From Pseudomonas hamedanensis (GTDB lineage: Bacteria; Pseudomonadota; Gammaproteobacteria; Pseudomonadales; Pseudomonadaceae): a DNA stretch of 64,000 nt. A program made the position numbers and the translations under genes. Below the pieces are notes generated by a model. That model was not told where the DNA came from. It saw only the letters and a program-made list of their open reading frames with translations, and did no database searches. Positions within the stretch are counted from its first letter, which is position 1, and each line of letters starts with the position of its first letter. This document shows, in pieces, positions 38,217-48,966 of this stretch. The stretch lies in contig NZ_CP077091.1 in NCBI RefSeq assembly GCF_014268595.2, forward strand, positions 3,684,001 through 3,748,000. Reading direction: 5' to 3'.

Positions 38217-38292
38217 GCCGGTATAGCTCAGTTGGTAGAGCAACTGACTTGTAATCAGTAGGTCCCGGGTTCGACTCCTGGTGCCGGCACCA
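38217..38292 (+). tRNA. tRNA-Thr(TGT), insertion target of the island
   Basis: A 76-base cloverleaf: acceptor GCCGGTA, D-arm GCTCAGTTGGTAGAGC, anticodon loop CTTGTAA (anticodon TGT), T-arm GGTTCGACTCC and encoded CCA. Its 3' end recurs at 47435 and 48945. The integrase gene starts 172 bases downstream. Confidence 0.96.
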
Positions 38293-38293
38293 T
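38270..38293 (+). other. attachment site copy 1 (tRNA-Thr 3' end)
   Basis: The segment from TTCGACTCCTGG to GGCACCAT is repeated, slightly altered, at 47435-47457 and 48945-48966. As it lies inside the tRNA, it is the target-side att site, and integration here keeps the tRNA intact. Confidence 0.75.
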
Positions 38294-38335
38294 CCAAGGT
38301 TCCATAGAAGGCTTTCAAAATCTCTGGAACCCCCG

Positions 38336-38362
38336 AAAAACCCGCCTTCTGGCGGGTTTTTT
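38336..38362 (+). terminator. terminator downstream of tRNA-Thr
   Basis: Stem AACCCGCC / GGCGGGTT with loop TTCT and a six-T tail. Because the att core ends before it, this hairpin is probably brought by the element and replaces the original tRNA terminator. Confidence 0.82.
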
Positions 38363-38464
38363 CGTTTTGGCGTTCCATCGGTTTCCGTCAGAAACTGGTG
38401 GATTCCAATCGTTTTAAGGGTAGAGTTTGGGGTACAGGTCACTTCGATAAAAGGGAGTACCCTT

Positions 38465-39784
38465 ATGTCGCGCACCACAGCTCCGCTCTCCGACGTAGCT
38501 TGCCGCTTGGCAAAACCTACAGACCGCGCCTACAAGCTTTTCGATGGCGATGGCCTCTATCTCCTAGTCCAACCCAATGGCCGCAAAGGCTGGCGGCTCC
38601 GTTACGTCAAACCTGACGGACGGGAAGGACTGACCTCGTTCGGCAACTACCCCGTGATTGGCCTCGCCGATGCGCGCCGCAAGCGCTTGGAAGTCAAGCG
38701 AATGCTGGCGGATGGCGTTGATCCTATAGAGACCAAGCACCAAGCCAAGGCGGAAGCCGTAATCAAAGGCAGAACCTTTGAAAGCGTTGCGCTCGACTGG
38801 CATACGGAAATGTCGGCCAAGTGGGCACCAGGCCATTCCAAGACAGTGATGAGCCGCCTCAAAACCCACGTATTCCCGCTGATCGGCGCACGCGCCATTG
38901 TTGATCTCGACACCCATGACCTTATGCAGCCCTTGGAAGCGATCAAGAAGCGCGGAACGATAGACGTAGCTTTAAGGGTACAAAACTACCTGCAGAGCAT
39001 CATGCGCGAAGCAAAACGCCTCCGGCTTATTACCTCAAACCCTGCTTACGACCTCGAAGGCTTGATCAAAGCCCCGCGGGTGGTACATCGCCCCGCTCTA
39101 CCCTTATCGCGACTACCGGAACTACAGGAGCGGATCGACACCTATAAAGGCCGGGCACTTACCCGTCTGACGGTGATGCTGTCGCTGCATGTGTTTGTAC
39201 GATCCAGCGAGCTGCGTTTCGCACGCTGGAGCGAGTTCGACCTCAAGCGTGGCACCTGGGAGATACCGGACACTCGACCCGCGTTGGAGGGAGTACCCTT
39301 TTCCACAAGGGGTACGAAGATGGCAGGGGATATCCATTTAGTACCCTTATCGCCGCAAGCAGTGGCGCTACTCGAAAAAATCCATGCACTCACAGGCAAA
39401 TTCGCATTGGTCTTCGCAGGGGATGCCAAACCCTGGAAGCCCATGTCCGAAAATACCGTGAACAACGCGCTTCGGACGATGGGATACGACACCAAAACCG
39501 ATATCTGCGGGCATGGATTTCGTTCGATGGCCTGCAGCGCACTGATCGAGTCAGGATTGTGGTCCGAGACAGCTATTGAACGGCAGATGAGCCACAAGGA
39601 GCGCAACAACGTCCGCGCCGCTTACATCCACAAGGCAGAGTTCATTGAGGAGCGCAGGCTGATCATGAACTGGTGGAGCCGGTACCTGGAGGCCAACCGG
39701 CAGGAGCATGTCACTCCGCATGAGTTCGCTAATCAGATTCGGGCGAATGTTACCCGGATGAAGGTGAAGCGGACCAATGATTGA
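38465..39784 (+). CDS. P4-type tyrosine integrase
   Basis: A 439-residue site-specific recombinase. The N-terminal DUF4102-like arm-binding domain reads LSDVACRLAKPTDRAYKLFDGDGLYL. The catalytic domain has Arg in LHVFVRSSELRFARW (near residue 246), HGFRSMACSALIE (His-x-x-Arg) and the late His/Tyr in QMSHKERNNVRAAYIH. Integrases of this type sit next to the tRNA they use, as here. AGGGAG lies before the ATG. GTACCC-type repeats occur before and inside the gene. Confidence 0.95.
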   Translation: MSRTTAPLSDVACRLAKPTDRAYKLFDGDGLYLLVQPNGRKGWRLRYVKPDGREGLTSFGNYPVIGLADARRKRLEVKRMLADGVDPIETKHQAKAEAVIKGRTFESVALDWHTEMSAKWAPGHSKTVMSRLKTHVFPLIGARAIVDLDTHDLMQPLEAIKKRGTIDVALRVQNYLQSIMREAKRLRLITSNPAYDLEGLIKAPRVVHRPALPLSRLPELQERIDTYKGRALTRLTVMLSLHVFVRSSELRFARWSEFDLKRGTWEIPDTRPALEGVPFSTRGTKMAGDIHLVPLSPQAVALLEKIHALTGKFALVFAGDAKPWKPMSENTVNNALRTMGYDTKTDICGHGFRSMACSALIESGLWSETAIERQMSHKERNNVRAAYIHKAEFIEERRLIMNWWSRYLEANRQEHVTPHEFANQIRANVTRMKVKRTND

Positions 39785-39815
39785 ATCCGCCACCCAAGTC
39801 ACTGAGACAGTCCTG

Positions 39816-40163
39816 CTATGGGAGCATGCCTAAAACCTCAGGCGTCAAGACCTGAAGCCCAATCCCAGACAACAGACTTGTGCCCAACACGAAGAGAGCT
39901 ACTTTCAACACCAAACGAATACCACCGCCGAATCCTTTATGACGCAACAAATAGCTGGCAACAATCTTCCTGTAACCATCGCCGTGGCTAAACGCATAGA
40001 TGATCGCCACCGCGAAGACAAACCATGCAGCGCGCTCGGGATGAGGCATCGTGATTATCGTCAACGCCAAACCGACACAAACAAAACCAATGCTATTAAC
40101 CTTCTTGAAATAGCTCTTGGCGATGGCTTCATCTTCATCGTCCAGAAAGAAATTCGGTCTCAT
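39816..40163 (-). CDS. hypothetical two- to three-pass membrane protein
   Basis: A 115-residue protein starting MRPNFFLDDEDEAIAKSYF, with hydrophobic helices near residues 25-42, 46-62 and 85-105. No family was recognised. It converges on the integrase gene and lies between the intact integrase and the integrase fragment at 40276, which makes it part of the island. Confidence 0.55.
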   Translation of the reverse strand: MRPNFFLDDEDEAIAKSYFKKVNSIGFVCVGLALTIITMPHPERAAWFVFAVAIIYAFSHGDGYRKIVASYLLRHKGFGGGIRLVLKVALFVLGTSLLSGIGLQVLTPEVLGMLP

Positions 40164-40275
40164 TGATATGCTCCTTTTGAGATCACAGTGCCGATCACCA
40201 TGTCATCCAGTCACAGATTAAGAACTCTCTCTGACCGTTTCCACCCAAAGCAGGCGCATTACCCCCGCAAATTGA

Positions 40276-40362
40276 CAGGAGCATGTCACTCCACACGAAT
40301 TCGCAAATCAGACCGGAGCGAACGTCACTCGCCTAAAAGCAAAACGTGGCGCAATTGAGTAA
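40276..40362 (+). pseudogene. 3' fragment of a second P4-type integrase
   Basis: One frame reads QEHVTPHEFANQTGANV then TRLKAKRGAIE and a stop. This matches the last 28 residues of the intact integrase (QEHVTPHEFANQIRANV then TRMKVKRTND and stop) at most positions, including twelve identical residues in a row. The DNA also matches, for example GGAGCATGTCACTCC. The rest of this integrase is missing, so it is the remnant of a related element. Confidence 0.85.
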
Positions 40363-47646: not shown

Positions 47647-47683
47647 TTAAAAAGCCCCGTTCCACATCGACTGTGGCGGGGCT
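47647..47683 (-). terminator. terminator of higBA
   Basis: On the minus strand a stem AGCCCCGCCACA / TGTGGAACGGGGCT is followed by a T run. It lies about 90 bases after the higA stop. Confidence 0.72.
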
Positions 47684-47772
47684 CTGAGTACAATTATTTG
47701 TTAGTTAGCACGATCTGCTCTTCGTTAATTTACCAGTTACTTTAAATATTAAACTGTACAACTCTCAAGTTC

Positions 47773-48273
47773 TTACACAACACCATGCATAAAAAACTCA
47801 ACTGGAACTTTAAAAAAGTCAGAAAAGCCTTTTATTTGAGCTACAGTCATTTTTCGTTTGTTGTTCAATATTTCCGAAATAGCACTCTGACTTGCAATAT
47901 CAGCTAGATCTTTCTGCTTTATGCCACGATCATTCATTAGAAAGGCTAATGCTTCCGATTGTGAAGAGTACGGAATCAGCACGGTTGCAGTCTCATACTC
48001 ATACACGCGATCTGCAACCAACTCCGCAAAACGGGCAGCTGCGTGATCTTCACTATCTGCATGAGAGTAGAGCTCATCAATAAGCGTCATCCGCCCCCGC
48101 AAGTCATCATCGCTTTCTATAGGATCATGACATGCAGATAACAACTTGGACACTGTCGCTATTTGATCGCTCATACTATCAAACATTGGTGAAATATTAG
48201 CTATGAAGGTCTCTAGTCCAGTGGCTTCGATCTTATCACGCTTCATCTCGTCACCTATAATTTCATAATACAT
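47773..48273 (-). CDS. higA: HigA-type antitoxin (XRE helix-turn-helix)
   Basis: A 166-residue protein. The C-terminal helix-turn-helix is clear (LAFLMNDRGIKQKDLADIA, QSAISEILNNKRKMT), as in HigA antitoxins that bind their own promoter. The N-terminal half is acidic and probably binds the toxin. A second possible start is at 48246. It follows higB by 25 bases, the usual toxin-first order of this family. Confidence 0.87.
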   Translation of the reverse strand: MYYEIIGDEMKRDKIEATGLETFIANISPMFDSMSDQIATVSKLLSACHDPIESDDDLRGRMTLIDELYSHADSEDHAAARFAELVADRVYEYETATVLIPYSSQSEALAFLMNDRGIKQKDLADIASQSAISEILNNKRKMTVAQIKGFSDFFKVPVEFFMHGVV

Positions 48274-48298
48274 AAATTGAGTCGATCTTCCTTGTCAA

Positions 48299-48652
48299 CT
48301 ACTTAACATCACTATTGCACCACTTGTCATATCCAGCATGGGGCAAAATATCCTTGATAAAAATGGTGCCATTCCGCGTGTTGATCCACACGATAATTCG
48401 ACACTCATTCTTCTTGATATCAAACACATAAATATCAAGAGGTCCTTTTTGGCTTGGGAGTCTTAGCTTGGAGCGAGGAATACGGTCAACGTTCCATCCT
48501 GAAGTATTGACCCAAACCTCACGAATCTGCTCAAAGGACTCGAACCGAAGGGGCGGTCTGTCAAAGGTGGAAAGCCACAATGTGAGTGGGTCTTTCCACT
48601 GGCTGTATTTTTCGATGGCTTCAGCTACCGCCGTTTTGGCAATCACTCGCAT
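48299..48652 (-). CDS. higB: HigB-type mRNA interferase toxin
   Basis: A 117-residue HigB_toxin family (RelE superfamily) protein starting MRVIAKTAVAEAIEKYSQWK and ending with the usual IFIKDILPHAGYDKW. Basic surface residues and a conserved late His are typical of ribosome-dependent mRNA cutting. It is the first gene of the pair and lies between att copies 2 and 3. Confidence 0.88.
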   Translation of the reverse strand: MRVIAKTAVAEAIEKYSQWKDPLTLWLSTFDRPPLRFESFEQIREVWVNTSGWNVDRIPRSKLRLPSQKGPLDIYVFDIKKNECRIIVWINTRNGTIFIKDILPHAGYDKWCNSDVK

Positions 48653-48705
48653 GTTCTTTTTTTCTCCGGCGTCCCTACATGCAGCGAAGATTATCGCGAA
48701 TTCAG

Positions 48706-48740
48706 ATATCTGTCAAACAGATATATCTGGATTGCAGATA
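48706..48740. promoter_or_regulatory. probable higBA operator
   Basis: Overlapping inverted repeats (ATATCTG-TCAAA-CAGATAT, then ATATCTG and CAGATA again) lie 55 bases upstream of higB. The position fits autorepression by HigA. Confidence 0.6.
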
Positions 48741-48944
48741 ACATTTCGAACACCTGCCAAAGCACAAATCTACCCGTCTTTGCAAAGCTGGAAACGGTAC
48801 TGCGTTGTTTGACGATTTCCATGATTTTTTAGTCCTGGAAGCTGCGGTAGCCGGGTACGCAGTGGCGGGGCCGGAGAATCGTTATGTCCAACGAAGCATC
48901 TGTTCCAGCCAGATTGGCTGGCATCAAATGTCGTGCGGAAACAA

Positions 48945-48966
48945 TCGACTCCTGGTGCTGCACCAT
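48945..48966 (+). other. attachment site copy 3 (tRNA-Thr 3' end)
   Basis: TCGACTCCTGGTGCTGCACCAT matches the tRNA-Thr 3' end, with one missing G and one C-to-T change. It is the outermost copy found. Confidence 0.72.

Follow-up and report, generated by a model that had tools for sequence, protein, structure and literature searches.

Why should a single tRNA-Thr gene of Pseudomonas hamedanensis be followed by two further copies of its own 3' end? The question is raised by a 64,000-nucleotide stretch of the chromosome, here called the window. The answer argued for below is that two site-specific insertions stand in line at tRNA-Thr(TGT), with a later one (element A) lodged between the tRNA gene and the remnant of an older one (segment B). 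We put the probability of this reading at about 0.85.

Three copies of a tRNA 3' end

The first copy belongs to an intact tRNA-Thr(TGT) gene (38217-38292, forward strand; ARAGORN, Rfam tRNA E 4.8e-15), the 3' end of which is the attachment site on the attL side. Copy 2 (47436-47456) and copy 3 (48945-48965), both on the forward strand, are read as the right att cores of element A and segment B. The motif TCGACTCCTGGTGC has three exact occurrences in the window, at 38271, 47436 and 48945 (up to one mismatch allowed), where shuffled sequence gave a mean of 0.03 matches and a largest of 1. In a search allowing up to three mismatches, TCGACTCCTGGTGCNGCACCAT has two exact occurrences, at 47436 and 48945, and was found in 0 of 100 shuffles. 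These controls rule out chance repeats as the source of the copies. The recurrence of the tRNA end reported by an earlier sequence-only reading is therefore confirmed, as are the intact tRNA at copy 1 and the start of copy 3 at 48945; copy 2 starts at 47436, not at 47435.

When the three copies are aligned, the acceptor reads TGCCGGCACCA in the tRNA, TGCCGCACCA in copy 2 and TGCTGCACCA in copy 3. Copies 2 and 3 each lack the same tRNA base and both keep GCACCA and TCGACTCCTGGTGC, while copy 3 also has a C to T change at its centre. Behind every copy lies a hairpin, read by eye at 38341-38357, 47461-47485 and 48973-49001, as had been noticed before. The distance from the tRNA end to the end of copy 2 is 9,164 bp (element A, 38293-47456) and from there to the end of copy 3 it is 1,509 bp (segment B, 47457-48965). 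The tRNA gene itself is intact and the terminator of native type has been displaced. A (GC content 0.466) and B (0.439) are both poorer in GC than their surroundings, for which the values are 0.594 on the upstream side, 0.571 over the first 2.7 kb after B and 0.588 further on.

Element A and its relatives

Element A begins with a left end (38293-38464, forward) that has its own terminator-like hairpin (38341-38357 plus a T run) and a median identity of 94.6% in 48 of 49 named tRNA-Thr(TGT) loci. Next comes Int (38465-39784, forward), a P4-type tyrosine integrase with Arm-DNA-bind_3, Phage_int_M and Phage_integrase domains in Pfam and an integrase match in PHROGs, so the earlier description of a 9 kb element with an integrase between copies 1 and 2 holds. 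An insert (39790-40270) with a 115-aa ORF on the reverse strand (39816-40163) has no match covering half its length in any of the 49 named loci, and a second copy of the Int 3' end, 73% identical, begins at 40267 (80-nt repeat, 39692/40267). The following stretch of about 1 kb (40276-41274, forward) has no recognised gene and is conserved: it was found in 75 of 149 genus genomes, with a median identity of 93.3% in 47 of the 49 named loci. Within it, upstream of a second recombinase, lies a radC RNA motif (RF01754, Rfam type Cis-reg; 40582-40715, forward; 78.2 bits, E 1.4e-13) with a median identity of 97.8% in 43 of the 49. The second tyrosine recombinase (41275-42255, forward; 326 aa; PF12835 Integrase_1, E 5.2e-07) has a DNA match in 42 of these loci, and its companion, the small ORF p91 (42252-42527, forward; no Pfam family), in 34.

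The cargo starts with a 119-aa ORF of no assigned function (42524-42883, forward), found in 2 of the 49 named loci. It continues on the reverse strand with the Gabija helicase GajB (43000-44961; PADLOC E 1e-236) and the OLD-type ATPase/TOPRIM protein GajA (44910-47048; PADLOC E 0; Pfam AAA_15 and OLD-like_TOPRIM), the two genes adjoining as expected of a Gabija system.

What kind of element is this? It has an intact tRNA gene at one end, an integrase inside, a site that is empty in relatives and, at its far end, a partial tRNA copy that is a boundary in other genomes also, which together are the marks of a tRNA-integrated island. A Pfam scan recognised in its seven ORFs no relaxase or mating gene of the kind that marks an IME or ICE. 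Nor were capsid, packaging or phage-response genes recognised among the seven ORFs (Pfam) or the five non-Gabija ORFs (PHROGs), and a phage satellite of the PICI or P4-like kind is not indicated by this gene content. Judged by its sequence, A is a complete integrative element, and it is probably a mobile one.

Relatives of Int were sampled at 80 of the 149 loci found; seven of the 80 named loci, in which the tRNA start had no exact class match, were set aside (L187, L207, L229, L239, L251, L253 and L262). In the tblastn comparisons of this study, hits that covered less than 40% of the query (less than 30% in one case) were left out. Beside tRNA-Thr(TGT), the family has tRNA-Thr(CGT) and tRNA-Asn(GTT) as target sites. 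Among the TGT-site elements tested, 18 of 28 carry a protein that matches a defence model, and the other 10 (11 if a PrimPol is set aside) have one or two scanned cargo proteins with no clear defence match. A search of open-licence literature found no published name for the element family.

The empty site and the status of segment B

Comparison with genomes that lack the island can show what was there before. Locus L037 (genome G034, another species) has neither A nor B nor copies 2 and 3, and no further copy within 19 kb. Window 48945-49010 is 91% identical to its tRNA end plus terminator and window 49166-56000 matches it at 88.8%, L037 having about 1.1 kb more than the window between terminator and HicB. 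The tRNA site is likewise empty in L039, L061 and L065; all are relatives of other species and not sister strains, the nearest sampled flanks being 88% identical. In the window the terminator behind copy 3 (48966-49007, forward) is of the type that stands behind this tRNA in related species, displaced here to a distance of 10.7 kb by the insertions. The same type is joined directly to the tRNA in L037, L039, L059, L061 and L065, so that in this genome all the DNA as far as copy 3 appears to have been added. In another genome (G016), an A-type element and its short core are followed directly by a copy-3-type terminator and HicBA, with no B between.

Segment B is as small as had been described: 1,509 bp with HigBA and no integrase between copies 2 and 3. 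Its left end is a terminator-like hairpin (47457-47485, forward) of the type found directly behind the tRNA in L040, L042 and L076. On the reverse strand follow a HigA-like antitoxin (47773-48273; HTH_3 at the cut-off, E 6.5e-05, 23.3 bits vs 23) and a HigB toxin (48299-48652; PF09907, E 1.7e-11), both unbroken. These are the two large ORFs in its ORF list; no integrase or transfer gene was found by Pfam scan of the two, and the family HMMs found no Int or Int1. B thus has att copies on both sides and neither integrase nor transfer genes, as a CIME does.

Could B be a living non-autonomous satellite, with a usable core at each end, for which A supplies the integrase in trans? GCACCA and TCGACTCCTGGTGC are preserved in both cores, and the HigBA reading frames are without a break. 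However, the matches listed for B in 397 other genomes include none that spans its ends, and so no second B; in the fetched loci its ends are unmatched beyond about 50 bases adjoining HigB. Copy 3 is moreover alone among 63 short cores in having a changed centre base, which suggests decay. A repeated satellite can be rejected on the listed matches and fetched loci, and a living one is unlikely. In the proposal of a full island and a small satellite or remnant side by side, the two insertions, one complete and one lacking an integrase, are supported, but 'satellite' is not.

It is about equally doubtful that B is ordinary chromosome, with HigBA a resident and copy 3 the scar of another, lost element. 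HigBA does occur at the same tRNA locus in four genomes (G157, G216, G134 and G130). In the first two, intact in G157 and decayed in G216, it adjoins a short core immediately to the right of an A-type element, and no third copy was seen there, so HigBA is not tied to att cores. Nevertheless, the direct joining of the copy-3-type terminator to the tRNA in the five relatives named above speaks against B as part of the original chromosome. B is best read, on its sequence, as the CIME-like remains of an older insertion, for which 'remnant' is the better word; since B as a unit was found nowhere else among the listed matches, its past as an element is read from its two ends.

The right edge of element A

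If A ends at copy 2, related elements should end there too, and a search for them at the same tRNA gene elsewhere found one that does so in another species. In Pseudomonas sp. PDM04 (L223) there is a 97.5% match to window 40270-47492. Of the 80 bases adjoining copy 2 on the left only one differs, whereas past the core the likeness is confined to a terminator-like run, and the terminator is another than in the window. In Pseudomonas sp. RIT288 (L192) the match stops at window 47485, as in L223.

These junctions bear on the idea that A and B are one composite element, which arrived in a single event with its right end at copy 3, copy 2 being an internal duplicate. Copies 2 and 3 are near-identical, and a joint exit of A plus B through copies 1 and 3 would be possible. 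Yet in L223 a right-hand part very like that of A comes to its end at copy 2 and a different terminator follows, and related elements end at the same core. On the L223 and L192 junctions a single composite element is rejected as very improbable.

A probable att core that lacks one base

The one-base-short core is not peculiar to this window. It was found in 62 of 398 genus genomes, at 63 places (the reversed-pattern control gave zero in all rows), and its centre base is the same in 62 of the 63, the exception being copy 3. In a set of 33 right copies from loci selected solely for their Int, 28 lacked exactly that base, four were full length and one was shorter; L207 and L262 also have a short right core and are outside these 33. 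The left and right flanks of the 33 loci diverge 0-6 bases after CCA. Together with the short core, this would place the crossover within GCACCA. In P. taiwanensis a contig of 7,502 bp has a self-overlap of 73 bp, as a circle or a tandem array would, and the joint consists of a short core plus the left end; on contig C14 of the same genome, a full-length core is followed by a stretch that resembles the left end.

Copies 2 and 3 had been taken for worn 3' fragments of the tRNA. That they are host fragments, each having lost its base by decay, might be suggested by the four full-length right copies, by the long copies of the tRNA that other integrations have left at this locus (L160, L073 and L152) and by a long copy in L145 that is also without the base, which fits poorly with an att core and is not accounted for by our model. 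But copies that decay independently would not be expected to lose one and the same base in 28 cases out of 33, to keep the same centre base in 62 of 63 places or to put a short core at the joint of a self-overlapping contig, and as a main reading decay is rejected as most improbable. From these patterns the best reading of the short copy is an att core that belongs to the element and has a standing deletion of one base, and the extra tRNA-like ends as belonging to the elements rather than to the tRNA.

Instability of a palindrome was also considered as the cause of the missing base, TGGTGCCGGCACCA being a perfect palindrome, and was rejected because the right core can be short at tRNA-Thr(CGT) too, where the site is not that palindrome. 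There it is short in 3 of 4 clear right copies from 12 loci tested (L240, L241 and L242), while L245 is one base longer. At tRNA-Asn it is short in 1 of 5 clear right copies from 14 loci tested (L252), full in L232-L234 and decayed in L259.

Not all units with a short right core are alike. Of 54 such units, 20 have a different left end and lack an Int reading frame of 340 aa, the 54 being 60 fetched short-core genomes minus six without both ends in the stretch (G079, G085, G193, G341, G157 and G216). This other left end is not explained by the model that follows.

A proposed history

B would be the residue of an insertion of the same kind that came first, lost its integrase and kept HigBA. A would have arrived later and inserted between the tRNA and B. 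In doing so, its Int would recombine the att core of A (usual form TTCGACTCCTGGTGCCGCACCA, followed by the left end of A) with the tRNA end inside GCACCA. The tRNA would thereby keep its own acceptor strand and receive the terminator of A, and the one-base-short core would end up on the right. A would bring with it a Gabija defence pair, just as its close kin often appear to carry other defence genes.

What if the missing base has a function? Tentatively, and at well under even odds, the short core may be the functional hallmark of a so far unnamed family of compact elements that carry defence genes, in which the second recombinase and the radC RNA stretch form a separate module. The core would then be shifted by one base against the tRNA immediately to the left of the block in which strands are exchanged. 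The crossover would be fixed to the last six tRNA bases and the right end would be a poor target, so that new elements would enter on the tRNA side and leave the tRNA end unspoiled. The second-recombinase module would be a platform onto which cargo is swapped, and would be common to islands at tRNA-Leu and tmRNA in this genome, the integrases of which are only about 30% identical.

With the off-by-one att core, sequence data suffice to map the crossover to six bases, and the core offers a simple, testable idea of how elements stack without harm to the tRNA. Matches to anti-phage models are frequent in the family's cargo. New defence genes may be looked for by sorting such elements according to their ends.

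Comparison with known systems

The GajA and GajB of element A adjoin and match the PADLOC models with no difference noted from the Gabija system, and are predicted on that ground to act in defence. GInt islands carry several recombinases. The two in A are mutually unlike (a P4-type Int and a PF12835 protein) and not adjacent, a comparison made with GInts by description only. GInts and A are alike as mobile genomic islands defined by recombination genes (PMC5385486).

The PAGI-97A islands, described in PMC8373256, sit at tRNA-Pro of P. aeruginosa with a perfect repeat of 49 bp and an integrase at the far border. They share with A a P4-type integrase, a repeat of the tRNA 3' end and variable cargo. 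In A, by contrast, the repeat measures about 21 bp with a discrepancy of one base, and the integrase adjoins the tRNA.

The I23/I44/I55 islands of Pseudomonas come closer in cargo. They target tmRNA, range from <20 to >70 kb and have alpA, many with RadC and YqaJ genes. Like A, they combine a tyrosine integrase near one end with defence cargo (Gabija in I23), have a direct repeat that lies at the 3' end of the target RNA gene, and show no recognised genes for autonomous transfer. Unlike them, A is 9.2 kb long, sits at tRNA-Thr, has a second recombinase and a radC RNA, and shows no AlpA family in its seven ORFs (PMC12595487).

The known counterpart of the stack itself is the CIME together with the tandem accretion of ICEs and IMEs, which PMC5704250 describes for conjugative and mobilizable elements, whereas the seven scanned ORFs of A include no relaxase or mating gene. 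Stacking at a tRNA gene is a known pattern, and this locus opens onto a family of small Pseudomonas mobile elements.

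Three copies of the tRNA-Thr 3' end

The intact tRNA-Thr(TGT) gene lies at 38217-38292, and a 14-mer from its 3' end (TCGACTCCTGGTGC) is found again at 47436 and 48945. Shuffled versions of the window hold a mean of 0.03 matches to it. These recurrences had been described in the sequence-only reading and the search confirms them, except that copy 2 begins at 47436 rather than 47435. The same reading placed a hairpin after every copy, and by eye a terminator-like hairpin does stand 3' of all three. One acceptor-strand base is absent from copies 2 and 3 (tRNA, TGCCGGCACCA; copy 2, TGCCGCACCA; copy 3, TGCTGCACCA), a form referred to here as the short core. 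Element A occupies 38293-47456, from the tRNA to copy 2, and segment B follows at 47457-48965, ending with copy 3.

Element A

From the tRNA to copy 2, element A encodes a P4-type integrase (Int), a 115-aa ORF, a second tyrosine recombinase (PF12835 by Pfam), two small ORFs and a Gabija pair (PADLOC; GajB, E 1e-236; GajA, E 0). An integrase-bearing element had been expected between copies 1 and 2, and the Pfam match to Int bears this out.

The right boundary is fixed by a locus of Pseudomonas sp. PDM04 (L223) that is 97.5% identical to window 40270-47492. Immediately left of copy 2 a single base in 80 differs, and the L223 core has one additional change (GCCGCATCA). Right of the core the two sequences diverge except for a terminator-like run. 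Because the likeness stops past the core, that run aside, element A ends at copy 2. The Int part of L223 is only 85% identical to the window, and this step in identity near 40270 shows a re-pairing of the Int module with the cargo module. Located at the step is a 481-bp insert (39790-40270) with the 115-aa ORF, matched in none of the 49 tRNA-Thr(TGT) loci chosen by Int; beside it, 80 nt of the Int 3' end are repeated (73%).

The second recombinase is preceded by a stretch (40276-41274) with matches in 75 of 149 genomes of the genus. By eye it shows, at 40480-40580, several TTATCCAC/GTGGATAA-like motifs; they resemble DnaA boxes, and perhaps an origin of replication lies here. The stretch also includes a radC RNA motif (RF01754, E 1.4e-13, Rfam type Cis-reg), whose group is given as Proteobacteria in a table of PMC2864571. 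Together with the second recombinase and p91, a small companion ORF, the stretch recurs at tRNA-Leu(CAA) and tmRNA of the same genome (islands L170, 5444000-5463900, and L171, 3180000-3199900), where the integrases are 30-31% identical to Int. A role for the second recombinase is conceivable.

Int is presumably active. In P. taiwanensis DSM 21245 (L262) a contig of 7,502 bp has an exact 73-bp self-overlap, at whose joint the short core is followed by the left end. This may reflect an excised circle or a head-to-tail array; both are compatible with the contig sequence. The tRNA contig of that genome (G341) stops 111 bp past the tRNA, inside sequence matching the element left end. On contig C14, a full-length core is followed by a stretch resembling the left end.

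The short core in the genus

The one-base-short pattern occurs in 62 of 398 genus genomes, at 63 places; a reversed-pattern control gives zero in every row. The central base is C at 62 of these, and copy 3 alone has T. Among the 62 genomes, that of the window alone has two short cores. Surroundings were retrieved for 60 of the 61 others (all but G071).

Since the pattern search itself selects short cores, a set chosen by Int alone was used in addition. It comprises 80 of 149 related loci, of which 49 are at tRNA-Thr(TGT) by exact match of the tRNA start. Related elements at this tRNA gene, which the sequence-only reading had suggested seeking, were found: 33 of the 49 have a right copy within the locus, and in 16 none was found there. 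The right copy is exactly short in 24, short with one or two extra changes in four, full length in four (L197, L211, L213, L257) and shorter by more than one base in one (L261). The short core is thus probably the element's own. The four full-length loci form no group on the Int tree (81 rows, midpoint-rooted for drawing only), so far as its weakly supported tips show, which fits a repeated change from short to full.

Where would the crossover lie? In the 33 loci the left and right flanks begin to diverge 0-6 bases past CCA; the value is zero in two, L198 and L247, of which L247 has an altered core. On the other side the limit is set by the missing base, so that a crossover point common to the whole family, if there is one, would lie within GCACCA. 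Tyrosine recombinases usually exchange a block of 6-8 bp. The missing base may also have a role of its own. One observation that counts against the short core as the element's own is a long tRNA copy lacking the same base in L145, which falls outside the model proposed here. The tRNA copies at other integrations here (L160, L073, L152 and L145) are long and extend as far back as the anticodon region.

The Int family also uses other tRNA genes. The 14 tRNA-Asn(GTT) users form a single fully supported group on the Int tree; tRNA-Thr(CGT) users form another, of ten plus L251 and L253, labelled 'other' under the exact-start rule. Clear right copies in these groups score 31-48 and reversed-core controls 15-22. 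Within the Thr(CGT) group, L240, L241 and L242 have a short copy and L245 one that is a base longer; eight of the 12 loci yielded none. In the Asn(GTT) group the copy has its full length in L232, L233 and L234, L252 has a short copy and L259 a decayed one, and nine of the 14 loci yielded none. A-type integrases were also seen outside Pseudomonas, on contigs of a metagenome bin named Formivibrio (L222, L229), which may reflect transfer or mis-binning.

Segment B and a proposed order of arrival

The toxin encoded in segment B is HigB (PF09907, E 1.7e-11); the antitoxin is HigA-like and matches at the Pfam cut-off. A search of 398 genomes with the whole of B returns HigBA matches elsewhere (68-84%), and among the matches listed no other spans B's ends. 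Its end regions have no match in the fetched loci past about 50 bases adjoining HigB. An A-type element has HigBA on its right in G157 (84% and 83%) and a decayed HigBA there in G216, and neither locus has a third core. In G134 and G130, HigBA and the tRNA-Thr gene share a contig. The hairpin type at B's left directly adjoins the tRNA in L040, L042 and L076.

Comparison with island-free genomes, also proposed from the sequence alone, is informative for the right flank. The terminator type right of copy 3 directly adjoins the tRNA in L037, L039, L059, L061 and L065. L037 comes from a different species, with an 88% identical flank (88.8% over window 49166-56000), and its terminator-to-HicB distance is about 1.1 kb greater than in the window. 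G016 has an A-type element, then a short core, the copy-3-type terminator and HicBA, with no B in between. The sequence right of copy 3 is, on these alignments, the older. There, a HicB/HicA-like pair (49173-49911) and a RES/Xre pair (50609-51693) flank a DUF3077 gene; both pairs are present in L037. Just right of HicA is a match to RF03163, the target of C4 antisense RNA (49944-49997, + strand; 46.9 bits, gathering 46.7).

Because copy 3 touches a terminator native to relatives, B's parent would have been first at the tRNA. Element A, between the tRNA and B, would then have entered later, or A and B arrived as a pair.

Are units like B common? Among the 60 short-core genomes whose surroundings were retrieved, 54 have both ends within the stretch and so provide 54 units, with L155 a repeat of L074. 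An A-type left end with an Int ORF of at least 340 aa is found in 32 (broken in L066, shortened in L131). Two have an A-type left end and no such ORF (L150, L158), and 20 have another left end and no such ORF, some with fragments of Int or the second recombinase. Units that lack Int, as B does, are therefore common at this site, and B has probably decayed from an earlier element. L119 and L129, units of 15 kb, share this short right core but have another left end, and in both a 519-aa ORF adjoins the core on the right; L119 has a primase-like ORF by eye. Perhaps these are a second element family at the site.

Cargo

One or two cargo proteins per element were scanned with PADLOC in 28 of the 33 tRNA-Thr(TGT) elements with a right copy, leaving out L223 (already known) and L206, L215, L220 and L247 (ORF lengths repeat those of others). 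A defence model is matched at E 1e-20 or better in 18 of the 28, or 17 without PrimPol, which may be no defence gene; the matches are to single proteins of systems that may be incomplete, and some are to widespread domains. They comprise Hachiman (2), another Gabija, Lamassu (2), MADS-like, DRT, TIR/SEFIR, CBASS cyclase, NDT, Septu-like (2, one with a type I specificity subunit), PD-T4-6-like, Dsr2, PD-Lambda-2-like, NsnB-like, candidate PDC-S31 and PrimPol. Cargo of L189, L190, L194, L198, L200, L202, L205, L222, L225 and L246 has no PADLOC match or one weaker than E 1e-20. The window-type Gabija is in two of the 49 loci (L192, L223). By eye, a 9.5-kb unit from tRNA to short core (L144) has apparent transporter and amidase genes; the cargo of such units may thus include genes of ordinary metabolism.

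Relation to known islands

Stacking at tRNA genes is already known. No description of this tRNA-Thr family was found in the open-licence papers searched. Pseudomonas islands that have defence hotspots and end in tRNA fragments are described in the portions consulted of PMC12629846 and PMC9897764, for families other than this one. In the scheme outlined in part of PMC5704250, an element decays to a CIME (integrase-less, att-flanked remains), upon which a new element accretes; the common Int-less units at this tRNA fit that scheme. The nearest described islands, in the sections consulted of PMC12595487, are the tmRNA elements I23, I44 and I55, and I23 carries Gabija, as does element A.
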